Shown one piece after another: positions 1-9,080 of a DNA stretch of 9,080 bases (position 1 is its first letter; each line of letters opens with the position of its first letter). Source of the DNA: Clostridia bacterium. Its GTDB lineage: Bacteria; Bacillota_A; Clostridia; Oscillospirales; CAG-382. Where the stretch lies: assembly GCA_017517985.1 (NCBI GenBank), contig JAFWWX010000451.1:1-9080 (forward strand), in the 5' to 3' direction. Position numbers and translations under genes: made by a program. A model generated the notes under the pieces. The model was given only the letters and a program-made list of their open reading frames with translations. It had not been told where the DNA came from and did not search any database.

Positions 1-87
1 TAGGGCTTCTCTGATTTTAGGCAGATTCCCTTTTTCAAAGACAACGTCTACAACTGATCCTGATACTTGTACAATTTCTCCATTCAT
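1..87 (-). CDS. atpD: ATP synthase F1 subunit beta, N-terminal fragment (partial, runs off window)
   Basis: Only the first 29 codons are present. They read MNGEIVQVSGSVVDVVF followed by a Lys-Gly-Asn-Leu-Pro segment, which is the typical start of the F1 beta N-terminal beta-barrel. The catalytic domain lies outside the window. Beta is the catalytic subunit of F1 on the cytoplasmic side. The start ATG (87-85) overlaps the gamma stop codon as ATGA, implying translational coupling. The SD GGAGGT lies inside the end of the gamma gene, 11 bases upstream. A second ATG at 83-81 is in another frame and does not give a beta protein. Position after gamma matches the standard alpha-gamma-beta-epsilon order, so epsilon is expected beyond the window. 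Confidence 0.95.
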   Translation of the reverse strand, partial: MNGEIVQVSGSVVDVVFEKGNLPKIREAL

Positions 88-1010
88 TCGCTTTTTACAC
101 CTCCTCTGACACTTTTCATTTTAGCTTTCTTTCTCATACTTTTTGCACCTGATGAAACTTCGGTGATTTCCTGTGTTATAGCACCTTGACGAATATGGTT
201 ATACTGAACAGAAAGTTCGTCAAGTAATTCCTGTGCATTTCTGTTAGCCGAATCCATAGCGTTCATACGCGCATTCTGTTCACTGCAAAAGCTGTCAATC
301 AGCGCACTGTATATAAATCCCGTTACATAGCTTGGAACTATGTTATCTAAAACCTTTTCAATGGACGGCTGAAACTCAAAAGGAATTATAATTTCTTTTT
401 CGTGAATATCAGAAGTAATAAACTGTGCACGGTGGAAGGGCAATAATCTCGCAGAGCAAGCCTGTGAGTTTATCACTCCCTGCATATCGGTATAAATAAC
501 AAAAATCTTTGAAAGCTTTTGTCTGTTAAATAAATCAAGTAAAATTGCCGAAATCTCTCTTGCTCTGTGAATTGTAGGATTCTGCGCCGTATAAAGAAAG
601 CTTTGCTCTATTGGAATATTACGTGATGTGAAATAATGTCTTCCAAATTCTCCTACGACAAAAAGCTTGGGATTTTCATGTTCCTGCATAAGCCTCAGAG
701 CCTCTTTTATAACATTCTGATTGTATGCTCCGGCGAGACCCTTATCCGCCGTAATAACAAGATATCCATAAGATCCGTGAAGCTCATGCTCACCGGTTAC
801 AGGATAGAAATATTTATTTTCAATCTCTTCAGAGGTTCTGAAAATTCGTTTTATCTCTCCCTGAATACAATTAAAAAACGGTCTGGTTTTATCGAGCTCG
901 CTTTTTGCTTTACGAAGCTTTGTCGAAGCGATCAGATACATAGCATTGGTGATTTTCTGCGTATCCCTTACACTTTTAATTCGATTTTTTATTTCCTTTG
1001 TGGTTGCCAT
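84..1010 (-). CDS. atpG: ATP synthase F1 subunit gamma
   Basis: Gamma is the central rotor shaft that turns inside the alpha3-beta3 head and links it to the c-ring. The N-terminus has the family signature (IKNRIKSVRDTQKITNAM, then Ala-Ser-Thr-Lys-Leu-Arg-Lys-Ala) forming the first coiled-coil helix. ITADKGLAGAYNQNV near residues 86-100 belongs to the Rossmann-like middle domain. The C-terminal helix (about 240-288) carries ARMNAMDSANRNAQELLDEL and RQGAITQEITEV. Length is 308 aa, against a usual 285-290 or so. The excess is a basic tail (about 290-308, KSMRKKAKMKSVRGG) after the point where gamma normally ends. The start at 1010 is 4 bases after the alpha stop, with a weak AGGGACGG-type SD in the alpha end. 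The gene is coupled to atpD by ATGA. Confidence 0.97.
   Translation of the reverse strand: MATTKEIKNRIKSVRDTQKITNAMYLIASTKLRKAKSELDKTRPFFNCIQGEIKRIFRTSEEIENKYFYPVTGEHELHGSYGYLVITADKGLAGAYNQNVIKEALRLMQEHENPKLFVVGEFGRHYFTSRNIPIEQSFLYTAQNPTIHRAREISAILLDLFNRQKLSKIFVIYTDMQGVINSQACSARLLPFHRAQFITSDIHEKEIIIPFEFQPSIEKVLDNIVPSYVTGFIYSALIDSFCSEQNARMNAMDSANRNAQELLDELSVQYNHIRQGAITQEITEVSSGAKSMRKKAKMKSVRGGVKSE
99..104 (-). promoter_or_regulatory. ribosome binding site of atpD, inside the atpG coding end
   Basis: GGAGGT on the minus strand, 11 bases before the atpD ATG at 87. It lies within the Arg-Gly-Gly codons of the gamma C-terminal tail. This may partly explain why gamma has extra C-terminal residues. 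Confidence 0.75.
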
Positions 1011-1014
1011 TCTA

Positions 1015-2751
1015 TCACCGTCCCTGCAAAAATTCTTTTGCTATGCGAATGATTTCTTCTCTGCACTCATCTTCGAGCACTCCGCTTCCATTGATGTTTT
1101 CGGCAATTTCAAAATGCTTTTCCTCAAAATATTTGAGCATATTCTGAACAGTTACCGTAACCCTACCCGGTGCAATATTCTGCAAAAGATGATTTAAGAC
1201 AACAACTAAAATAATAACCTGCTCGTGATGCTTATACGGTTTATACTGTTCCTGTTTCAGCACTTGCATAAGTCCCTGACCGTAAGTAAGCTGTGCTTTG
1301 GACGCATCATCAAGGTCACTTGCAAACTGTGTGAACACTTCCATTTCACGGTACTGTGCCAAATCAAGACGGATAGCGCCTGCTGCTTTTTTCATTGCTT
1401 GTGTCTGTGCATCGCCCCCCACACGGGAAACAGAAAGACCTACATTTACTGCCGGACGCTGACCTGCAAAAAACAAATCGCTTTCCAAAAAAATCTGACC
1501 GTCTGTAATGGAAATAATATTTGTCGGAATATATGCCGATACATCGCCTGATTGTGTTTCAACAATAGGAAGCGCCGTCATACTTCCGCCGCCTTTTTCA
1601 TCGCTTAAGTGTGCACTACGCTCTAGGAGTCTTGAATGCAGATAGAACACATCACCGGGATATGCTTCTCGTCCCGGAGCACGCTCTAAAAGAAGACTCA
1701 AGGAACGATAAGCAATAGCATGCTTTGATAAATCATCATACACAATCAAAACATCTTTCCCATTATCCATAAAATACTCTCCCAATGCACATCCGGCATA
1801 AGGTGCTATGTACTGCAGCGGTGCCGAGTCACTTGCAGAGGCATTGACAATAATCGTGTATTCCATTGCACCTCTCGATTTAAGATTTTGCACAAGCTGA
1901 GCAACAGAGCTTGCTTTTTGACCAATTGCGACATATATACAAATAACATCCTTGCCTTTTTGATTCAGAATGGTATCTATTGCAATCGCAGTTTTACCTG
2001 TCTGACGGTCGCCTATGATAAGCTCACGCTGACCTCTGCCGATTGGAAACATTGAATCTATTGCAAGAATACCGGTTTCCATTGGTGCACAAACAGGCTG
2101 TCTGTCAATGATACCGGGTGCCGGATTTTCAACCGCACGATAGTCAACTGAATGAATTTCGCCTTGTCCGTCAATTGGAACACCGAGAGCATTTACTACT
2201 CTTCCTATAAATTCATCACCAACGGGAACACCTGCAGTTTTGCCGGTTCTTTTTACCGTGCTTCCTTCACTGATTTCTTCATCGCTTCCGAAAAGAATAC
2301 AGCCTATTTCGCCATCCCTTAAGTCCTGTACCATACCTCTTACACCTGATGTAAAAAGCAAAATTTCACCATAGGTTGCGTTTTTAAGACCGCTGACGGT
2401 GGCAATTCCGTCACCGACAGTCAAAACTTCGCCAATTTCTTCAGCAATAGCTTCAGGTGTCCAGTTTTCAACTGTTTCACGGATTAAAGGAATAATGTCA
2501 TTACTTTTATTTTTAAGCTTAGATAAGGCTTCTTTGAATTGAGCAAGGCGTCCGTCGATACTCCAGTCGAAAACTTCAGAACCAATCTCCAGCTTAAAGC
2601 CGCCTTCGGGTATATCTGTTTTCTTCCAGACCAGAGAAATGTCCTCGTTGTATCTTTGCTTTAAGAAATCAATAAATTTCTTCTCCTGCTCGTCGCTTGG
2701 CGGTGTATTGGAATACAAAACGGCAGTTTGGGTATAAATTTTATCAGTCAT
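1015..2751 (-). CDS. atpA: ATP synthase F1 subunit alpha with an N-terminal delta (OSCP) C-domain-like fusion
   Basis: This is the regulatory/non-catalytic nucleotide-binding subunit of F1. Alpha features are the N-terminal barrel ([19 protein letters not shown], about 104-122), Walker A GDRQTGKT (247-254), Walker B-type VLIVYDD (334-340), and the arginine-finger segment [10 protein letters not shown] (R443). Length is 578 aa against about 500 for typical alpha, and Walker A is displaced about 78 residues from its usual place. Residues 1-77 do not resemble alpha. They read as the C-terminal domain of delta: a Thr-Ala segment, [16 protein letters not shown], then [20 protein letters not shown], matching delta's GG-x-gd-x-D-S-rL pattern. 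No in-frame Met occurs between residues 1 and 140, so an unfused alpha from an internal ATG is not available. The gene overlaps atpF by 8 bases, leaving no room for atpH. Fusion is read from the sequence; its function is inference. Confidence 0.96.
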
Positions 2752-3238
2752 CCGCCTCGCTCCTTTGTACCGAATTCAAAAAGTTATTGTAAGCATCCGA
2801 AGTGCTTGCGCCTGCAACAATTTTTTCAGTAGCATCCGCTACCATATCGGCTATTTCATTCTGAGCACTTTCAAGAAGTTTTTTGCGTTCTCCTTCAGCC
2901 TTTTTATATGCATCAGAAACGATTTTATCTGCTTCCTGCTTTGCTAAAAGCATACTCTGAGCGGTTTTCTCAGACAATGACTTGTTTGCAGCCTGCCTTT
3001 TTTCTTCAATTTCGCTATCGGCAGAATGTAATTTTTCTGCATACTTCTTTTTAAGTTCCTCTGCCTGCTTTAAATTCTTCTTTGCTTCATCGTCAATGTT
3101 TTTGTAATATTCGCATCTTTTATCCATAAATTTCTTTACGGGGTCATATAGAAGGAAATATAGTATTGCAAACAAAATTACAAAATTTAACAAATGCAGA
3201 AGAATTTGCTGCCAGTCAATATTAAGCGGCACATTCAT
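2744..3238 (-). CDS. atpF: ATP synthase F0 subunit b
   Basis: This is the peripheral-stalk subunit, anchoring the F1 head to F0. The 164 residues begin with a short polar N-terminus and one membrane helix (about 10-30, [18 protein letters not shown]), followed by the conserved [11 protein letters not shown] hinge. A long charged, heptad-like helix follows (about 40-150, rich in Lys, Glu, Ala and Gln), typical of the b dimer coiled coil. The ending is [13 protein letters not shown] plus a short acidic tail. Length is normal. SD AAGGAGGAA (3252-3244) lies 5 bases before the ATG. The gene follows c after 16 bases and overlaps alpha by 8 bases (its TGA at 2746-2744 lies beyond the atpA ATG). No delta domain is fused here, unlike the b-delta fusion of mycobacteria; the delta-like piece is on alpha instead. 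Confidence 0.96.
2760..2766 (-). promoter_or_regulatory. ribosome binding site deciding the atpA (fusion) start
   Basis: AAAGGAG on the minus strand lies 8 bases before the ATG at 2751 and inside the last codons of atpF. It supports translation of alpha from the start that includes the delta-like extension. Confidence 0.8.
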
Positions 3239-3254
3239 TGATTTTCCTCCTTCC

Positions 3255-3596
3255 TTACAATACGAATATAATCAGTATTGCAATAACAAGTGCGTAGATA
3301 ATAGCTGTTTCAACGAAAACAAGACCAAGCATCAATGTTGTACGGATTTTGTTTTCAGCCTCAGGCTGACGGGAAATCGCTTCTGCAGATTTTGCAATAG
3401 CCCAGCCCATACCGATTGCACCGGCCGCTGCCGCAAGTCCAACTGCAATCGCTGCCGCAAGTGCTTTGTCACCAAGCGCATTGTCGGCTGCTGCAACCGT
3501 TTCGGCTTCACCTGCAGCGAAAGCAGGGATTGTCAATGTAAATATCATCGCAAGCAGCATCACTGCCGTAAAGATTCTTTTAATGTTCTTTTTCAT
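3255..3596 (-). CDS. atpE: ATP synthase F0 subunit c with N-terminal signal-like extension
   Basis: This is the ring-forming proteolipid that carries the coupling ion. The core has two membrane helices (about 44-72 and 86-112) joined by the polar loop RQPEA (76-80). The ion-binding carboxylate is E96 in LVFVETAIIYALV. Length is 113 aa, against 70-90 for most c subunits. The excess is an N-terminal Lys/Arg-rich start, a hydrophobic run (AVMLLAMIFTLTIP) and AFA-A near 25-28, which looks like a signal peptidase I site and would leave about 86 residues. Compared from memory with the Na+-binding Ilyobacter c subunit, the Gln32 position is M63, Ser66 is T97 and Thr67 is A98, with the Tyr kept (Y101). 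Proton coupling is therefore more likely than sodium, but this is inference. SD GGAGGT (3609-3604) is 7 bases from the ATG. Confidence 0.96.
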   Translation of the reverse strand: MKKNIKRIFTAVMLLAMIFTLTIPAFAAGEAETVAAADNALGDKALAAAIAVGLAAAAGAIGMGWAIAKSAEAISRQPEAENKIRTTLMLGLVFVETAIIYALVIAILIIFVL

Positions 3597-3618
3597 ATCT
3601 TAAACCTCCAAATTTTAA

Positions 3619-4428
3619 TTATTTCTTAACGCGAGCCGGCTCTGATACCTCGCCGTAAAAAAGAGATGTGAGCATTGTAAGTACATACGCCTGAATAACG
3701 GCGTGAAGCAATGTAAACAATACTCCGACAAGTACCGGAAGACCATAGCTTAAATGAATATAGTGATAAACAAGCTCTGTTACAAGGGCACCGCTTAAAA
3801 GTGCACCAAAAAGACGAAAGCTCATTGATATGGGAAGAGAAAATTCTTTTAAGGTTTTTCCCACTCCTTTTAATTTATTTTCTGCTATACCGCCCGATAG
3901 GATAACAAGATATGAAAGGCATCCTATCATTATTGCCCCGTTGATATCTGCAAGCGGAGCAGGCAGTGCCATTGATGTTCCGTGTGTTGTAACCACTTGA
4001 ATACCAAATAGTTCAAGTATTGTTCCTACAAATATGTACACGCCTGCGGTGAAAACATATGCACCTAAAAATTTATTACGGTGCGGACTGTTGGATTTTG
4101 CAAGATTCTCAAAAAATCCAACCAGTGTCTCAAGAATAAGCTGAAGCTTTCCCGGAACCATTTTAAATTTTGGAATCACAAATATTCTAATGATTAGTGC
4201 AATCACAAAAAGTATTCCCGTAACAGTAACAGCTGAGATGAGTCCGGGATTTACATTCTTTAAGCCAAAAAGACTTATCTTATTCGTCTCATGAAGAACG
4301 GCATCCCGCATTAATTCTCTTATAGATTCATGGCTGCCGGGGGATTTTACAATTATGGTACCAATCATTAATATAAGTGCAAGAATAGCAAAAGCAACTA
4401 TTCCTGTTGTCCTTTTCTTTTTATCCAT
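3619..4428 (-). CDS. atpB: ATP synthase F0 subunit a
   Basis: This membrane stator subunit forms the two half-channels against the c-ring. The 269 residues contain several hydrophobic helices, starting at about 9-28. The conserved PLADINGA segment is at 158-165. The essential arginine is R205 in LPISMSFRLFGALLSG. The last helix motif HAVIQAYVLTMLTSLFYGE has Q246 next to the arginine region. Length and motif order are normal. The ATG at 4428 lies inside the 3' end of a small upstream ORF (31-base overlap). Its nearest SD-like element, GGAGGT (4448-4443), is 14 bases away, which is long, so coupling to the upstream ORF is plausible. No better in-frame start was found upstream. The c gene follows after 22 bases. 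Confidence 0.95.
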   Translation of the reverse strand: MDKKKRTTGIVAFAILALILMIGTIIVKSPGSHESIRELMRDAVLHETNKISLFGLKNVNPGLISAVTVTGILFVIALIIRIFVIPKFKMVPGKLQLILETLVGFFENLAKSNSPHRNKFLGAYVFTAGVYIFVGTILELFGIQVVTTHGTSMALPAPLADINGAIMIGCLSYLVILSGGIAENKLKGVGKTLKEFSLPISMSFRLFGALLSGALVTELVYHYIHLSYGLPVLVGVLFTLLHAVIQAYVLTMLTSLFYGEVSEPARVKK

Positions 4429-4514
4429 AATAAACAGCCTATACCTCCAATCGTTAAAGCAGCCGCAATACAGGCAGAAACTCCTATTCCGGTTGTTATT
4501 ATTTTCTTATACAT
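4398..4514 (-). CDS. 38-residue single-helix membrane protein at the head of the atp operon
   Basis: This ORF is unrecognised. The protein starts MYKKIITTGIGVSACIAAAL, continues with a Gly-rich hydrophobic stretch (TIGGIGCLLWI) and ends in a basic tail KRKGQQE. That predicts one transmembrane helix with a positive, probably cytoplasmic, C-terminus. The best support is an excellent SD, AGGAGGG, 7 bases before the ATG, and its position as first gene after the atp leader, overlapping atpB by 31 bases. AtpI or AtpZ genes often occupy this place, but those have more than one helix and are longer, and I see no convincing match. It could be a reduced AtpZ-like protein, a genuine small accessory subunit, or a leader ORF whose translation opens the atpB start. 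Homologue searches of short ORFs upstream of atpB in relatives would decide. Confidence 0.6.
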   Translation of the reverse strand: MYKKIITTGIGVSACIAAALTIGGIGCLLWIKRKGQQE

Positions 4515-4521
4515 TTATAAG

Positions 4522-4528
4522 CCCTCCT
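4522..4528 (-). promoter_or_regulatory. strong ribosome binding site of the 38-residue ORF
   Basis: AGGAGGG on the minus strand, 7 bases before the ATG at 4514. It is the best SD in the atp leader and is badly placed for atpB itself (94 bases away), so it argues that the small ORF is translated. Confidence 0.75.
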
Positions 4529-4537
4529 ATCTTTTGC

Positions 4538-4571
4538 AAAAACGTCACTACAAACCTTAACAAGCAATGAC
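4538..4571 (-). other. second, weaker hairpin with T-run in the atp leader
   Basis: On the minus strand GTCATTGC (4571-4564) can pair with GTAGTGAC (4551-4544) over a 12-base loop, using two G-U pairs, and is followed by G then TTTTT (4542-4538). It may be a backup terminator, an attenuator or a chance stem. The large loop makes it weak. Confidence 0.35.
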
Positions 4572-4577
4572 TTGCAG

Positions 4578-4621
4578 AAAAAAAGCAAAGGCGTCCTGAC
4601 TAATATCAGAACGCCTTTGCT
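4578..4621 (-). terminator. intrinsic terminator after nfnB / 5' hairpin of the atp leader
   Basis: On the minus strand AGCAAAGGCGT (5' arm, 4621-4611) pairs with ACGCCTTTGCT (4594-4584). The stem continues through one G-U pair and four further pairs to a 6-base loop (4605-4600). A run of T (4584-4578) follows. The single non-Watson-Crick position is A-C on the plus strand but G-U in minus-strand RNA, supporting minus-strand function. The plus-strand side lacks a clean T-run. It stops transcripts from nfnAB. It also lies within a few bases of the predicted start of the atp transcript, so it could attenuate that operon or form a stable 5' end. Confidence 0.88.
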
Positions 4622-4631
4622 CTTATTTAAT

Positions 4632-4660
4632 ATTATAACTCATTCCCACGATATTGTCAA
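4632..4660 (-). promoter_or_regulatory. perfect-consensus sigma-A promoter for the atp operon
   Basis: TTGACA (4660-4655), a 17-base spacer, then TATAAT (4637-4632) on the minus strand: both hexamers and the spacing are the textbook optimum. The -35 begins 5 bases after the nfnB stop codon. The predicted start site is about 4624-4626, only 3-5 bases before the terminator-like hairpin, giving a leader of about 110 bases to the first ORF. No other good promoter is seen between here and atpB. Confidence 0.85.
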
Positions 4661-4665
4661 GATTT

Positions 4666-6090
4666 TCAGCATTTTTTTCCTTTAAGATATTCGTTAATTG
4701 CATTGGCTGCTGTTTTACCTGCCCCCATTGCAGATATAACCGTTGCTGCACCTGTTACTGCATCGCCACCTGCATAAACTGCATTACGAGATGTTAAACC
4801 ATCTTCGTTGACGATTATACCGCCTCTTGAATTTACCTCAAGCCCTTCAGTTGTAACTTTGATCAATGGATTTGGTGATGTTCCAATTGACATGATAACA
4901 GTATCCACATCAATCTCAAATTCACTTCCGGGAATTGGAGCAGGGCGTCTTCTGCCTTTTGCATCAAGTTCTCCAAGCTCCATTCTAATACAACGCATTC
5001 CTTTTACAAAGCCGTTTTTAGGATCTTTAGTATCATCAGGGTTATTATATCCAAGAATTTCAGTAGGGTTGCAAAGCAGACGGAATTCAATTCCTTCTTC
5101 TTCAGCATGTTCCACTTCCTCTCGTCTCGCCGGAAGTTCATCCATCGATCGGCGGTAAATAACATATACTTTTTCAGCGCCAAGTCTAAGAGCTGTTCTT
5201 GCAGCATCCATAGCAACATTACCGCCGCCAACAACTGCAACATTGCCGCCTTTCATAATAGGTGTTTCAGGATTTTCAAGATAAGATTTCATCAAGTTGC
5301 TTCTCGTCAAAAACTCGTTAGCAGAATACACGCCGTTAAGAGACTCTCCGGGAATACCCATAAAATTAGGAAGTCCTGCGCCTGACCCAATAAACACTGC
5401 CTCAAAGCCCATATCAAACAATTCATCTACTGTCAAAGTTTTTCCTATAACGACATTGGTTTCAATCTTAACGCCAAGCTTATTCAAAGCATCTACTTCT
5501 TTTGCAACAATTGCTTTTGGCAAACGGAACTCGGGAATTCCATAAACCAAAACACCGCCTGCTGTATGAAGTGCTTCATAAACAGTTACATCATAGCCTT
5601 TTTTAGCGAGATCACCTGCGCAAGTTAAACCCGAGGGTCCCGATCCGACTATAGCTACTTTATGACCATTTGAATCAGGCTTTTCGGGAGCATCCTTAGC
5701 GAACGTATTATGCCAGTCTGCAACAAATCTTTCAAGCCTTCCTATACCTACCGATTCTCCTTTAATACCTCTTACGCATTTTGATTCGCACTGTGTTTCC
5801 TGAGGGCATACTCTGCCGCAAACCGCCGGCAACGAAGAAGACTTTGTAATAATCTGATATGCTCCCTCAAAATCACCTTCCTTGATAGCGGAGATAAATT
5901 CCGGAATATGAATTTTTACTGGACAACCGTCAACGCAAGGCATATTTTTACAATTTAAACAACGCATTGCTTCGTTTATTGCCGTTTCTTCTGAATATCC
6001 TAAAGCAACCTCATCGAAATTATGTGCACGAATTCTTGGATCCTGTGTAGGCATCTGATTGCGAGTGATTGACATATTTGCTTTAGCCAT
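4666..6090 (-). CDS. nfnB: NADH-dependent reduced ferredoxin:NADP+ oxidoreductase, large subunit NfnB (GltD-like)
   Basis: This is the flavoprotein subunit of the cytoplasmic electron-bifurcating Nfn complex, which couples ferredoxin and NADH oxidation to NADP+ reduction, or the reverse. Its family is usually annotated as glutamate synthase small subunit. Domains in order: an N-terminal Fe-S domain with CLNCKNMPCVDGCP (C44, 47, 52, 56) and CGRVCPQETQCESKC (C91, 95, 101, 105) for two [4Fe-4S] clusters; an FAD Rossmann motif GSGPSGL (149-155); an NADPH-binding motif GGGNVAMDAAR (288-298); and a C-terminal flavin contact YAGGDAVTGAATVI (439-452). At 474 aa the length is normal. Pairing with nfnA, one base upstream, and the absence of a GltB large subunit favour Nfn over glutamate synthase. 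SD AAGGAGG (6106-6100) lies inside nfnA, 9 bases from the ATG. A terminator follows after about 45 bases. Confidence 0.92.
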   Translation of the reverse strand: MAKANMSITRNQMPTQDPRIRAHNFDEVALGYSEETAINEAMRCLNCKNMPCVDGCPVKIHIPEFISAIKEGDFEGAYQIITKSSSLPAVCGRVCPQETQCESKCVRGIKGESVGIGRLERFVADWHNTFAKDAPEKPDSNGHKVAIVGSGPSGLTCAGDLAKKGYDVTVYEALHTAGGVLVYGIPEFRLPKAIVAKEVDALNKLGVKIETNVVIGKTLTVDELFDMGFEAVFIGSGAGLPNFMGIPGESLNGVYSANEFLTRSNLMKSYLENPETPIMKGGNVAVVGGGNVAMDAARTALRLGAEKVYVIYRRSMDELPARREEVEHAEEEGIEFRLLCNPTEILGYNNPDDTKDPKNGFVKGMRCIRMELGELDAKGRRRPAPIPGSEFEIDVDTVIMSIGTSPNPLIKVTTEGLEVNSRGGIIVNEDGLTSRNAVYAGGDAVTGAATVISAMGAGKTAANAINEYLKGKKC

Positions 6091-6091
6091 A

Positions 6092-6946
6092 TCATTCTAC
6101 CTCCTTTTTAAACAGACTACACGTTGCTTCATGTGCGTGTTTTTCAAATGTTGAATACATTTTTCCTCGGGAGATTGCCTCATCAAAGTCAACTTCATAT
6201 CCATTAAAATCAGGACCATCAACACACGCAAACTTTGTTACTTTTTCTCCGTTCACATTCAGGCTTAATCTGCAACCACCGCACATTCCTGTTCCGTCAA
6301 TCATAATAGGATTCATAGAAACGGTTACAGGTGTTGCAAAAGGTTTTGCGGTCAATACAACGTATTTCATCATAACAAGAGGTCCTATTGCAATTATAAT
6401 ATCAAATTTTTCGCCATTTTCAAGCATTTCTTTTAAAGGAGCTGTTACATTTCCCTTTTCACCGTAAGAGCCGTCATCTGTCATGATTTTTAATGTGTCA
6501 GAACAATTTTTAAATTCATCTTCAAGGATTAAAAGTTCCTTACTTCTAAAACCTATAATGCTTGTTACTTGAGCTCCCATTTCGTGAAGCTTCTCAGCTA
6601 TCGGCATAGCTATTGCGCATCCAACACCACCGCCGACTATACAAGCCCTTTTTATACCGTCAATATGTGTTGGTACACCTAAAGGACCTACAAAATCCGA
6701 AATATACTCCCCTTCTTGTTTGTGGCTGAGTTTTTCAGTTGTTCCACCGACAATTTGAACAATAATTTTTACCGTTCCTTTTTCTTTATTAACCCCGGCA
6801 ACTGTAAGGGGAATTCTTTCTCCATCTTCATCAACTCTTAAAATAATAAACTGTCCGGGTTTTGCCTTACGAGCTACTAAAGGCGCCTCTATCTGAAGCT
6901 GAACAACCGCTTCATTTAAAATCTTCTTTTCAATAATTTTATACAT
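6092..6946 (-). CDS. nfnA: NADH-dependent reduced ferredoxin:NADP+ oxidoreductase, small subunit NfnA (FNR/PyrK-like)
   Basis: This is the FAD and [2Fe-2S] subunit that handles NAD(H) in the Nfn complex. The 284 residues from the ATG at 6946 show an FNR-type FAD domain (KPGQFIILRV at 29-38; RIPLTVAG at 44-51) and an NAD-binding Rossmann segment (CIVGGGVGCAIAMPIAEKL, 102-120). A C-terminal cluster motif, MIDGTGMCGGCR with C222 and C225, is followed by FACVDGPDF with C241. D217 sits where an aspartate ligand is, from memory, reported in Nfn. The frame is open to 6991, but those extra 15 codons run through the upstream terminator hairpin and have no SD. The internal ATG at 6946 has GGAGA 6 bases upstream and begins with the family-like MYKIIEKKIL. 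The protein belongs to the DHODH electron-transfer/sulfide dehydrogenase-like family; pairing with nfnB decides the name. Confidence 0.92.
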   Translation of the reverse strand: MYKIIEKKILNEAVVQLQIEAPLVARKAKPGQFIILRVDEDGERIPLTVAGVNKEKGTVKIIVQIVGGTTEKLSHKQEGEYISDFVGPLGVPTHIDGIKRACIVGGGVGCAIAMPIAEKLHEMGAQVTSIIGFRSKELLILEDEFKNCSDTLKIMTDDGSYGEKGNVTAPLKEMLENGEKFDIIIAIGPLVMMKYVVLTAKPFATPVTVSMNPIMIDGTGMCGGCRLSLNVNGEKVTKFACVDGPDFNGYEVDFDEAISRGKMYSTFEKHAHEATCSLFKKEVE

Positions 6947-6952
6947 ACTATC

Positions 6953-6957
6953 TCTCC
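6953..6957 (-). promoter_or_regulatory. ribosome binding site deciding the nfnA start
   Basis: GGAGA on the minus strand, 6 bases before the ATG at 6946. It supports this start over the longer frame beginning at 6991, which passes through the terminator stem. Confidence 0.75.
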
Positions 6958-6961
6958 GTTC

Positions 6962-7000
6962 AAAAAAATGACGGCTACCGGAACTCGGCAACCGTCATTT
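6962..7000 (-). terminator. intrinsic terminator between adh and nfnA
   Basis: On the minus strand AAATGACGG (7000-6992) pairs perfectly with CCGTCATTT (6974-6966). The stem extends inward by six pairs, two of them G-U, to a 5-base loop (6985-6981), and is followed by a T-run through 6962. The two imperfect positions are A-C type on the plus strand but G-U in minus-strand RNA, which supports minus-strand function. It ends the alcohol dehydrogenase transcript 25 bases after its stop. Only 15 bases separate it from the nfnA ATG, so nfnAB must either start transcription at or before this hairpin or depend on read-through. Confidence 0.88.
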
Positions 7001-7025
7001 ATGATATTACACGGTGTATCCGTTA

Positions 7026-8243
7026 TTAAAAATCAACTTCTGTGTCATAATAACAGCATTTGAGAAGTTTTTCCATTTCTTCAACAGAAATCTTACGAGG
7101 ATTAGAACCTGTACAAGCATCAGCAACTGCATTCTTTGCAATTTCAGGAAGTCTTTCAAGGAATATTTTTTCAGGAACAAATCCGTTTTCGCAAGGATAG
7201 CTGTCTGCTCCGTAGTTTTTGATGCACTGTGGAATATTAAGAGCATCGTTCATTCCACGAAGATATGCAATAAGGTTTGCAACTTTTTCATCATCGTCTG
7301 CACCGCCGAGTCCCATATAGTCTGCAATCACACCATAACGCTTTTTAGCTGTTTCATCTTTTGCATTAAATGCAATAACTTTAGGAAGATACATAGCATT
7401 AGCAGCACCATGAATTATGTGAGCACCTAAATCTTCAAAAACTGCACCTGTTTTGTGAGCCATTGAATGAACGATACCAAGAAGAGCATTAGAGAACGCC
7501 ATGCCTGCAAGACACTGAGCATTATGCATAGAAGCACGCTTTGTCATATCGCCGTTATAAGAACCAACGAGAGCAGACTGAATCATTTTAATTGCAAATA
7601 TTGCAAGGGGATCAGTAAATTCGCAGTTTGCAGTTGAAACATAAGCTTCAATAGCATGTGTCATAGCATCCATACCTGTGTGAGCTGTAAGCTTCTGAGG
7701 CATCGTTTCAGCAAGTTCAGGATCTACAATAGCAACATCAGGGGTAATTTCAAAATCTGCAAGGGGATATTTGATACCTTTTTCATAGTCTGTGATAACA
7801 GAGAAAGCTGTAACTTCTGTTGCTGTACCTGATGTTGAAGGAATAGCACAGAAATGAGCCTTTTTACGAAGTTCAGGGATACCGAATACTACACACATTT
7901 CCTCAAATGTGATTTCCGGATATTCGTACTTAATCCACATAGCTTTTGCGGCATCAATCGGAGAACCACCGCCGATGGCAACAATCCAGTCCGGTTGGAA
8001 TTTTGTCATAGCTTCTGCACCGCGCATAACGGTATCAACAGAAGGATCCGGCTCAATACCTTCAAAAACTTCAACTTCCATCCCTGCTTCTTTAAGGTAT
8101 GTAGTTACCTTATCAAGAAAACCGAAGCGTTTCATAGAACCGCCGCCTACGCAAACCATTGCGCGTGTACCTTTGAGTGTTTTGAGTGCCTCAAGTGCAC
8201 CTTTGCCGTGATATAAGTCACGAGGTAATGTAAAACGTGCCAT
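7026..8243 (-). CDS. iron-containing alcohol dehydrogenase (AdhE C-domain-like)
   Basis: This is a group III Fe-ADH that reduces an aldehyde to an alcohol with NAD(P)H in the cytoplasm, probably acetaldehyde or a short-chain aldehyde in fermentation. The substrate cannot be read from sequence. Seen: nucleotide-binding IVAIGGGSPIDAAKAMW (87-103), STSGTATEVT (136-145), and metal-binding D192 and H196 in GMDAMTHAIEAY. Further metal ligands are H259 in GIVHSMAHKTGAVF and H278 in IIHGAANAM. TGSNPRKIS near the C-terminus recalls the ADH domain of AdhE. At 405 aa it is complete and has no aldehyde dehydrogenase domain. The stretch between H259 and H278 is about five residues longer than in AdhE or FucO as I recall them. 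SD AAAGGAGA (8258-8251) is 7 bases from the ATG. Its own promoter and terminator flank it, so it is probably monocistronic. Confidence 0.93.
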   Translation of the reverse strand: MARFTLPRDLYHGKGALEALKTLKGTRAMVCVGGGSMKRFGFLDKVTTYLKEAGMEVEVFEGIEPDPSVDTVMRGAEAMTKFQPDWIVAIGGGSPIDAAKAMWIKYEYPEITFEEMCVVFGIPELRKKAHFCAIPSTSGTATEVTAFSVITDYEKGIKYPLADFEITPDVAIVDPELAETMPQKLTAHTGMDAMTHAIEAYVSTANCEFTDPLAIFAIKMIQSALVGSYNGDMTKRASMHNAQCLAGMAFSNALLGIVHSMAHKTGAVFEDLGAHIIHGAANAMYLPKVIAFNAKDETAKKRYGVIADYMGLGGADDDEKVANLIAYLRGMNDALNIPQCIKNYGADSYPCENGFVPEKIFLERLPEIAKNAVADACTGSNPRKISVEEMEKLLKCCYYDTEVDF

Positions 8244-8271
8244 TACAATTTCTCCTTTATTATATGTATTT

Positions 8272-8289
8272 TTAAATTTATTAAATTTA
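8272..8289. repeat. tandem 9-bp repeat in the adh leader, possible operator
   Basis: Plus strand TTAAATTTA is present twice without a gap (8272-8280 and 8281-8289), each copy containing the palindrome TAAATTTA. It lies between the predicted transcription start (about 8299) and the SD of the dehydrogenase. That place suits a repressor site, but in such AT-rich DNA it could be chance. Confidence 0.4.
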
Positions 8290-8305
8290 GTTCTTTATAT
8301 ATTTA

Positions 8306-8334
8306 ATTATACAACATAAAACTATATTTGGGAA
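8306..8334 (-). promoter_or_regulatory. probable promoter of the alcohol dehydrogenase
   Basis: TTCCCA (8334-8329, 4 of 6 to the -35 consensus), a 17-base spacer and a perfect TATAAT (8311-8306) on the minus strand. The predicted start is near 8299, giving a leader of about 56 bases. A weak -35 with inverted repeats upstream fits an activated or regulated promoter. Confidence 0.6.
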
Positions 8335-8341
8335 TAATTAA

Positions 8342-8392
8342 AAACGTAACCCAATCTTATCATTTTTGATAACTTCATTCATATATACGTTT
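8342..8392. promoter_or_regulatory. nested inverted repeats upstream of the adh promoter
   Basis: Inner perfect repeat: TTATCA (8357-8362), four T, TGATAA (8367-8372). Its centre is about 65 bases upstream of the predicted adh start, a usual place for an activator dimer. Outer arms AAACGTA (8342-8348) and TACGTTT (8386-8392) are complementary and enclose it. On the minus strand the outer arm runs into TTTTT, so a weak terminator for the hydrogenase gene is an alternative. I do not recognise the site as a named regulator's box. Confidence 0.4.
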
Positions 8393-8400
8393 AAGACATA

Positions 8401-9080
8401 CTATTTTAACACAGCAACGGCATGTGAAATTGTTTTTTCAAGAGCTTCTCTGCCGTATTTATCAACTTCTGATTTGTTTTTTTCACCGTGAGTCAGGCAT
8501 CCAGCACCGCCGATACACCCGCCGACACACGCCATACCTTCGATAAAGTTTGCATCAAGCACACCTTTGCTCAATTTAAGAAGTGCCATCTTGCAAGCTT
8601 CTATTCCATCACAAGGAATTGCATTCAAATCAAAATCTATTTTCTGTTCCTTTAACCCCTGTGCTACAGCATCAGAAAGGCCACCGGAGCGTGCAAAAAT
8701 TCTGCCAAAGTACGAAGCATTATCAAGCACATCTTCATCAAGCGCTGTTATATCAATATCCTTGCTGTCATAGAGAGCCTGAAGCTCTTCAAAAGTCATA
8801 ACAGCATCTACATAAGGCTTTACATCTTCAAGCTGTGCTTCAGCCTTTTTAGCTGTGCAAGGTCCAATAAACACAATCCTTGAGTTTGCATCTGTTTCCT
8901 TGATATACTTTGCAAGCGTTGCCATCGGTGAAAGATTGTGGGAAATATATTTAACCAAATCAGGAAACGCTGATTTCACATAGGAAACAAAAGCCGGACA
9001 GCATGAGCTCGTCAAAAGTCCTTTTTCTGCAAGTTCCTTTGATTCAGATTGTGCAACCATATCTGCACCAAGTGCCGCTT
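8401..9080 (-). CDS. [FeFe] hydrogenase, C-terminal part of the H-cluster domain (partial, cut by window edge)
   Basis: This enzyme interconverts protons plus electrons and H2, with ferredoxin as the usual partner. The reading frame continues past the Met at 9060 to the window end (Ala-Leu-Gly-Ala-Asp before it), so the true start lies outside. Numbering from that Met, motif L1 is LTSSCCPAF (C20, C21), L2 is GPCTAKKAE (C68) and L3 is MACVGGCIGGAGC (C178, C182). These supply the proton-transfer Cys and the four ligands of the [4Fe-4S] part of the H-cluster. The motifs differ from standard CpI-type enzymes: CCPAF for CCPGW, Gly for Met before PC in L2, and GAGCL for GGGQP in L3. From memory this is the pattern of group B hydrogenases. 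Accessory Fe-S domains, if any, are beyond the window. It ends with TAG; no strong terminator follows. Confidence 0.93.
   Translation of the reverse strand, partial: AALGADMVAQSESKELAEKGLLTSSCCPAFVSYVKSAFPDLVKYISHNLSPMATLAKYIKETDANSRIVFIGPCTAKKAEAQLEDVKPYVDAVMTFEELQALYDSKDIDITALDEDVLDNASYFGRIFARSGGLSDAVAQGLKEQKIDFDLNAIPCDGIEACKMALLKLSKGVLDANFIEGMACVGGCIGGAGCLTHGEKNKSEVDKYGREALEKTISHAVAVLK

Follow-up and report, generated by a model that had tools for sequence, protein, structure and literature searches.

A delta C-terminal domain at the N-terminus of ATP synthase alpha in Oscillospirales-type Clostridia, and the multi-stalk enzyme that it may support

Introduction

The number of peripheral stalks and of a-subunits in F-type ATP synthases has been treated as fixed at one, with the size of the c-ring as the natural lever on the ion/ATP ratio. 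An ATP synthase operon on a contig assigned to a Clostridia bacterium (GenBank assembly GCA_017517985.1, contig JAFWWX010000451.1, positions 1 to 9,080; this whole stretch of 9,080 nucleotides is referred to as the window) puts a question to this rule, as its alpha subunit begins with additional residues which a sequence-only reading had likened to the b-binding C-terminal domain of delta (OSCP). Is this fusion real, in which organisms does it occur, and how many stalks could an enzyme carry whose alpha subunits all bear such a domain?

Results and Discussion

The fused alpha subunit

Residues 1-85 alone matched the Pfam OSCP profile (PF00213) with an E-value of 7.9e-9 and 36.3 bits (cut-off 22.3), and the whole 578-aa protein revealed the same match at residues 8-76 with 31.8 bits. 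The match spans profile positions 103-172, which is the C-terminal part up to the profile end, and nowhere in the fused alpha was a match found to positions 1-102, the delta N-terminal domain. NCBIfam delta models also align at the N-terminus, their scores staying below the whole-protein cut-offs, as would be expected of half a subunit. The remainder (residues 82-576) belongs to F1 alpha, scoring 748.9 bits with the equivalog TIGR00962 against a cut-off of 484.45. With both profiles above their cut-offs, the fusion of a delta C-terminal domain to alpha, with the N-terminal domain absent, is confirmed; the sequence-only reading had counted about 78 extra residues and, because alpha homology starts near residue 81, had placed them correctly to within a few codons.

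The bases before the start are AAAGGAGCGAGGCGG-ATG and include a Shine-Dalgarno-like AAGGAG, so the good ribosome-binding site described earlier is indeed there. Likewise, no in-frame Met allows an unfused alpha, the next ATG being codon 140, within alpha; TTG codons 12, 110 and 131 showed no obvious Shine-Dalgarno sequence by eye, and an unfused alpha via an internal start was rejected, as no likely start precedes codon 140. A protein search with residues 1-85 gave 153 matches at E<=0.001; among the 120 of them listed, 118 have 578 aa and two have 501 aa, and two proteins among the matches listed each occur on more than 100 contigs. Compared with locus L057 (67% amino acid identity in this part), the delta domain displayed pN 0.15 and pS 0.98 and is under purifying selection. 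In five more distant pairs the identity was 41-67% for the delta domain and 71-88% for alpha, so the delta domain evolves faster than alpha. An artefact or frameshift was rejected on account of the same frame across many contigs, the relatives in the tree set and the purifying selection, which also disposes of the earlier concern that a sequencing error had created the fusion. A vestigial delta N-domain upstream was considered as well and dropped: the PF00213 match to positions 34-172 crosses three stops and was taken as a chance extension.

The operon of the window

The ATP synthase genes lie on the minus strand in the order a, c, b, fused alpha, gamma and the start of beta (Table 1). The last 8 bases of b overlap the start of the fused alpha, and the gamma stop and beta start overlap in ATGA. 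In the stretch from a to gamma, neither the list of open reading frames nor Pfam revealed a separate delta gene. The window's b, presumably the partner of the fused delta domain, shows no delta-like end of its own, with no OSCP among its Pfam rows and TIGR03321 aligned at positions 2-140 of 246 only. The linker and first alpha helix (residues 81-97) are kept in a 35-row alignment of the fusion. By eye, the N-terminal extension of subunit c reads like a signal peptide.

Table 1. Features of the ATP synthase operon in the window (FoX is defined in the text)
Feature	Position	Strand	Evidence
Subunit a, FoX type, Ala at residue 209	3619..4428	-	Pfam ATP-synt_A 69.9 bits
Subunit c, 113 aa, signal-like N-terminal extension	3255..3596	-	Pfam ATP-synt_C 60.6 bits, residues 46-109
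Subunit b, 164 aa	2744..3238	-	Pfam ATP-synt_B 64 bits
Fused alpha, 578 aa	1015..2751	-	open frame, begins MTDKIYTQ
Delta (OSCP) C-terminal domain, fused-alpha residues 8-76	2524..2730	-	Pfam OSCP 103-172/172
Linker and alpha N-terminal helix, residues 81-97	2461..2511	-	predicted helix 86-96
F1 alpha proper, residues 81-578 and stop	1015..2511	-	TIGR00962 residues 82-576
Subunit gamma	84..1010	-	Pfam ATP-synt 292.4 bits; TIGR01146 262 bits
Beta start, partial, runs off the window	1..87	-	read from sequence

Predicted structure

An AlphaFold2 model of the window protein, built with 24 sequences, had a mean pLDDT of 72.4 and a pTM of 0.69. The delta domain is predicted to consist of a strand (9-14), a helix (20-34), three strands (39-44, 53-56, 59-62) and a helix (65-77), with block pLDDT of 70-89 over residues 11-80 and 58 for residues 1-10; another helix (86-96) lies where alpha begins. 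In a Foldseek search of the PDB, the top three hits were 9jc1_I, 9jc1_K and 9jc1_J, in this order (570 columns, 49-50% identity), which are the three delta-dN-alpha chains in an engineered enzyme from Bacillus PS3. VIA-align returned alpha chains only for the window model, 9jc1 being absent among the 50 matches listed, and the fold support from 9jc1 therefore rests on Foldseek.

Comparison with known ATP synthases

For the PS3 construct (PMC12229609), delta was stripped of its N-domain and its C-domain was attached to alpha, and the resulting enzyme carries one to three stalks. Compared with the wild type, its a content was 2.2-fold and its b content 1.8-fold, the H+/ATP ratio was 5.8 instead of 3.0, and the motive force needed for ATP synthesis was halved. 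The same text describes a very small share of triple-stalk particles, frequent loss of stalks and pumping below the wild type, concludes that the delta N-domain restricts the number of stalks to one, remarks on a natural fusion in the operon of Acidaminococcus fermentans and in UniProt entries G4Q3K6 and A0A1I2C5T3, and proposes natural multi-stalk enzymes. The architecture of the window is therefore not new in print, and the view taken in the sequence-only reading, that no delta-alpha fusion had been characterised, no longer holds, since the structure of an engineered fusion has been solved (9jc1). Both proteins carry the delta C-domain without its N-domain on the alpha N-terminus, and neither enzyme has a separate delta; the PS3 enzyme is engineered, retains the PS3 Fo and lacks the epsilon C-domain, whereas the window's is natural with FoX-type a and c. 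By the authors' description, the A. fermentans fusion shares the window's architecture.

Fusions of b and delta are described for Gordonia and some Mycobacterium (PMC5709465; PDB 7jg5). Here, too, delta forms part of a multidomain chain, but it sits on b, while the window has it on alpha and none on b. The mycobacterial-type chain presumably contains the whole delta in a single copy per enzyme. The N-type ATPase is without delta and has a longer b (PMC5706428), thus resembling the window's operon in the absence of a separate delta; it differs in that the delta-like end is on b and not on alpha. The end of the N-type b profile (TIGR03321, 179-244) aligned weakly (18.9 bits) with residues 10-75 of the fused alpha. 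An N-type assignment was rejected, as the window's alpha scored 614 bits against a TIGR03324 cut-off of 750.5. In the titles and abstract openings of one literature collection, b-delta-alpha, tandem delta-alpha and free mini-delta ATP synthases were not reported, and no purification of a natural deltaC-alpha enzyme was found in the same collection.

Architectures and their lineages

Full delta-alpha, tandem, free mini-delta and b-delta-alpha forms among the relatives are new here. A first tree comprised 92 alpha rows, namely 34 deltaC-alpha, 23 with separate delta, 13 with free deltaC, 11 b-deltaC-alpha, 8 full delta-alpha, 1 tandem, 1 with an extra N-domain match and 1 b-deltaC; it omits L001, L002, L003, L010, L059 and L084 (duplicates or fragments) as well as L004 and L033 (without alpha). 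A second tree, under a mixture model, had 90 rows, with 15 earlier rows thinned out and 13 added. Support was by SH-aLRT from short searches, with many forks open and L037 on a long branch. The deltaC-alpha label changed 6 times on the first tree and 9 times on the second (starred branches force 5), gains and losses not being told apart in these counts; on both trees, several separate alpha lineages are without the delta N-domain.

In the main clade, deltaC-alpha rows adjoin full delta-alpha rows, which suggests that the fusion came first and the N-domain was lost later. In another clade, free deltaC genes adjoin deltaC-alpha (L063, L064) and b-deltaC (L089), which points to loss of the N-domain before fusion. 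Fusion does not require N-domain loss, because full delta-alpha fusions exist (8 loci).

Several variants accompany these forms. Two tandem delta C-domains precede alpha in L050, L107 and L108, of which L108 is from Candidatus Coproplasma avicola; L107 and L108 have a b of 229-231 aa compared with the usual ~165. Free mini-delta genes with a C-domain match only lie between b and alpha in L019 (4652-4870(+)), L024, L026-L029, L053, L082, L083 and L085-L088; they are mostly 71-78 aa long, two having 102 and 159 aa. A single contig of genome G294 holds two mini-delta operons (L083, L084), the second with an alpha frame of only 416 aa. The 782-aa alpha of L022 (4536-6884(+)) displays a second, partial delta N-domain match ahead of the fuller delta match, and the separate delta of L052 (251 aa) an additional C-domain match.

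The triple fusion of b, delta and alpha

Eleven loci encode a b-deltaC-alpha chain of ~740 aa, namely L058 (contig C188 of assembly G000, 2685-4901(-)), L025, L042-L049 and L090, and form a single clade in both trees (support 100, starred). In these rows, 237-260 residues with a delta C-domain match precede alpha, and nine of the eleven (all except L042 and L048) revealed a b-type match at the chain start; upstream there is also a stand-alone b of 138-146 aa. When residues 1-245 of L058 served as the query, 963 proteins matched at E<=0.001; among the 120 matches listed, 119 have 726-743 aa and one has 439 aa. OSCP and alpha domains occur in all of these 120, a Pfam b domain in about three quarters. 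The model of one such chain, P0121, reached a mean pLDDT of 64.0 and a pTM of 0.34 with a poor alpha part, predicting helices at 2-48, 66-121 and 242-256 and delta-like elements at 160-231 (block pLDDT mostly 79-90, 67 at the end). Unless such a chain is cleaved, alpha stoichiometry puts three b-type segments on every F1.

An Fo family tied to the fusion

We use FoX for the Fo family whose a has 59-100% identity to the window's a. Among 98 loci with a readable a, 39 fall into this range and the others show 20-38% identity. All 39 FoX loci are fused (36 deltaC-alpha and 3 tandem deltaC-deltaC-alpha), none of the 54 loci of other architectures has FoX, and 5 deltaC-alpha loci are without it. The link between the window's fusion type and a single, distinct Fo family is new here. 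At residue 209 of a (window numbering), four after an Arg invariant in 98/98, all 39 FoX sequences have Ala and all 59 others Asn; we take these two positions to be R210 and N214 of E. coli. Frames of c, read as the longest ORF, are 111-186 aa in FoX operons and mostly 59-100 aa in the others.

Searching the order sample with the window's a revealed 37 genomes at E<1e-90 besides G000 and 4 near 1e-21, with none between. Of these 37 FoX genomes, 36 carry the fusion (35 read at the locus, G180 by its 611-aa frame), the exception being G066, whose FoX operon (L190) is without a delta domain. In L190 (2089-4111(+)), b is shortened to 153 aa, and G066 also has an ordinary delta; the arrangement would be consistent with one deletion across the b/alpha junction. 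In the phylum sample (E<=1e-30), FoX was found in 2 of 397 genomes besides G000, one of which, G475, lies outside the order and is also fused. This genome of the same class but another order has a FoX deltaC-alpha operon in addition to an ordinary ATP synthase (L184, L185), which hints at transfer.

FoX shows two changes on the alpha tree. At 55-60% alpha identity, a is on average 56% identical between FoX pairs and 32% between non-FoX pairs, the pairs being non-independent; in b-deltaC-alpha operons, a is 59% identical at 60-65% alpha identity (7 non-independent pairs). Relative to alpha, the FoX a is thus more conserved than in ordinary, delta-alpha and free-deltaC operons, and b-deltaC-alpha is similar to it. 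Recent spread or transfer of the Fo could account for this conservation instead of new contacts.

Distribution among genomes

In the window's family, 39 of 120 genomes gave a PF00213 match; in the order sample (>=90% completeness) it was 174 of 297 at E<=0.01, with 32 genomes listed for weak matches, and in the class sample 168 of 293. Within the order sample, at least 41 genomes have deltaC-alpha (39 of them read at the locus and two, G134 and G180, judged by frame length only), at least 1 the tandem form, at least 6 full delta-alpha and at least 9 b-deltaC-alpha, so that fusions of alpha amount to at least 57 of 296 genomes with G000 left out; 8 genomes have a free delta C-domain gene and 1 a b-deltaC gene. 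The count was made by hand with ten loci added and with the weak G103, G216, G290, G316 and G333 unassigned, and it is a lower bound because it covers the matches listed and because PF00213 missed four genomes (G154, G234, G312, G315) in which alpha is nevertheless extended. Some added loci (L184, L191, L192, L196 and L198) reached only 12-15 bits with the ordinary-delta profile, and they were assigned by the 74-89 bits obtained with a profile made, non-independently, from the fused rows themselves.

Carriers of the fusion are Oscillospiraceae, Clostridia, Lachnospiraceae and other MAGs and Candidatus Coproplasma avicola, a set in which ten fused loci (L100-L109) were read, and in the genus Faecalibacterium sp. 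An121, sp. An58, Candidatus F. avium and F. gallinarum, among which we take An121, An58 and F. gallinarum to be cultured strains. The fusion is common in the window's order and present in named Faecalibacterium, which is new here. Matches from Sphingopyxis, Rhodobacteraceae, Pelagibacteraceae and similar groups were set aside, the alphas found there having no extension of more than 40 residues; among the matches listed, these have an ordinary delta gene beside alpha.

How many stalks?

In the arrangement that we propose, the separate delta would be replaced by its b-binding C-terminal domain on the alpha N-terminus. Three delta C-domains per F1 head follow from the alpha3beta3 stoichiometry, as had been pointed out from the sequence, along with the apt questions of whether the fusion takes over the grip of delta and what number of stalks results. 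Each of them could dock one b dimer, and each docked dimer might bring its own a-subunit, giving more than one peripheral stalk and up to three; the correspondingly high ion/ATP ratio would allow a fermenting anaerobe to operate when the ion-motive force is low, and FoX would be adapted to this arrangement. That each alpha is its own b dock, giving a multi-stalk enzyme with a high ion/ATP ratio, is the explanation towards which we lean slightly, and an enzyme of the window's type may thus have as many as three stalks and proton channels rather than a single one of each. It is in line with the domain and profile matches and the Foldseek ranking, with the one to three stalks obtained from the same architecture in PS3 (PMC12229609), with N-domain loss in several separate alpha lineages, with the b segments in triplicate in the b-deltaC-alpha lineage, with the confinement of FoX to deltaC-alpha and tandem operons (39/39 loci, 36/37 order-sample genomes), and with the greater conservation of the FoX a relative to alpha. 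Several points speak against it: the rarity of triple-stalk particles and the weakened pumping of the engineered enzyme, the FoX operon without a delta domain, the 8 full-length delta-alpha loci, the absence of 9jc1 among the VIA-align matches listed, and an a conservation that recent spread of the Fo could explain, together with a delta domain that evolves faster than alpha. Less probable, yet to be taken seriously, is an enzyme with a single stalk, in which one of the three delta domains docks the b dimer and two stay idle; Fo would assemble around one a, and the fusion, acting in cis, would secure the supply of delta and a firmer attachment. To our knowledge, all known F-type ATP synthases have one stalk; no second a or b gene occurs in the FoX operons listed, and full delta-alpha is kept at 8 loci although three N-domains would hardly fit on one axis. 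The engineered particles, too, often lost stalks (PMC12229609). What a single stalk leaves unexplained is the repeated absence of the N-domain, a clade with a b segment on all three alphas, and the tie to one Fo family.

An enzyme with an unusual Fo that works chiefly as an ATP-driven ion pump, its fusion incidental to the adjacency and overlap of b, delta and alpha in compact operons, appears improbable to us. The overlap of the b and fused-alpha genes would suit it, and an ordinary F-ATPase delta occurs beside the FoX operon in 7 of the 37 FoX genomes and also in G475; in the other 30, however, no further delta-type match is listed, so the FoX enzyme looks like the only F-ATPase there, and a fusion that was incidental would not be expected to go with one Fo family. 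That the fusion is a product of sequencing or assembly, or is removed by an internal start or proteolysis to leave a working alpha unfused, we regard as hardly credible: nothing beyond possible proteolysis speaks for it, and the 578-aa frame shared by many contigs, the 34 deltaC-alpha tree rows, the purifying selection and the lack of a likely start before codon 140 all speak against it. Returning to several stalks, a wider form of this explanation, to which we give somewhat less than an even chance, holds that multi-stalk ATP synthases are common in gut Oscillospirales-type Clostridia and arose by several routes (delta-alpha followed by N-domain loss, a free mini-delta followed by fusion to alpha or b, and b-deltaC-alpha), one of them with a dedicated Fo whose a, with Asn changed to Ala four residues after the conserved Arg, would suit several a on one c-ring, and that their ion/ATP ratio would lie well above that of known F-ATPases. 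If two or three stalks are indeed present, this would be a second natural way to change the ion/ATP ratio and would account for ATP synthesis by low-energy fermenters when the motive force is lower; named hosts (Faecalibacterium sp. An121, An58 and F. gallinarum) make it testable.

Host and surroundings of the window contig

Assembly G000 is near-identical to the window: the alignment of 8,671 bases holds 36 mismatches, and contig C59 of G000 does not include window bases 1-409. With 2.79 Mb and 8.77% contamination, G000 is larger than the 29 sampled genomes of the same genus with 1.2-2.2 Mb (rounded). No stand-alone PF00213 match was found in this contaminated bin, and the idea of using a delta-free genome of the window as evidence was dropped on account of the contamination. 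None of the 29 same-genus genomes contains a fused-alpha match above 57% identity. Two of them have frames of 737-738 aa, the size of the triple fusion, and in one of these (G1074) a 5.4-kb contig is colinear with the window from a and c into b at 88.6% identity. Given the size and contamination of G000, and as none of these 29 genomes has a close fused alpha, the host of the window is uncertain, and the contig may be mis-binned or patchily inherited. Another same-genus genome, G1082, matches the fused alpha from residue 25 with 50% identity and one TGA inside (C6:81062-82723).

Upstream of the operon and on the same strand (window 4666-9060(-)), the genes look by eye like two subunits of an NADPH-ferredoxin oxidoreductase of the Nfn type, an iron alcohol dehydrogenase and an iron-hydrogenase-like protein. 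Part of this gene order is retained in L207 and L208.
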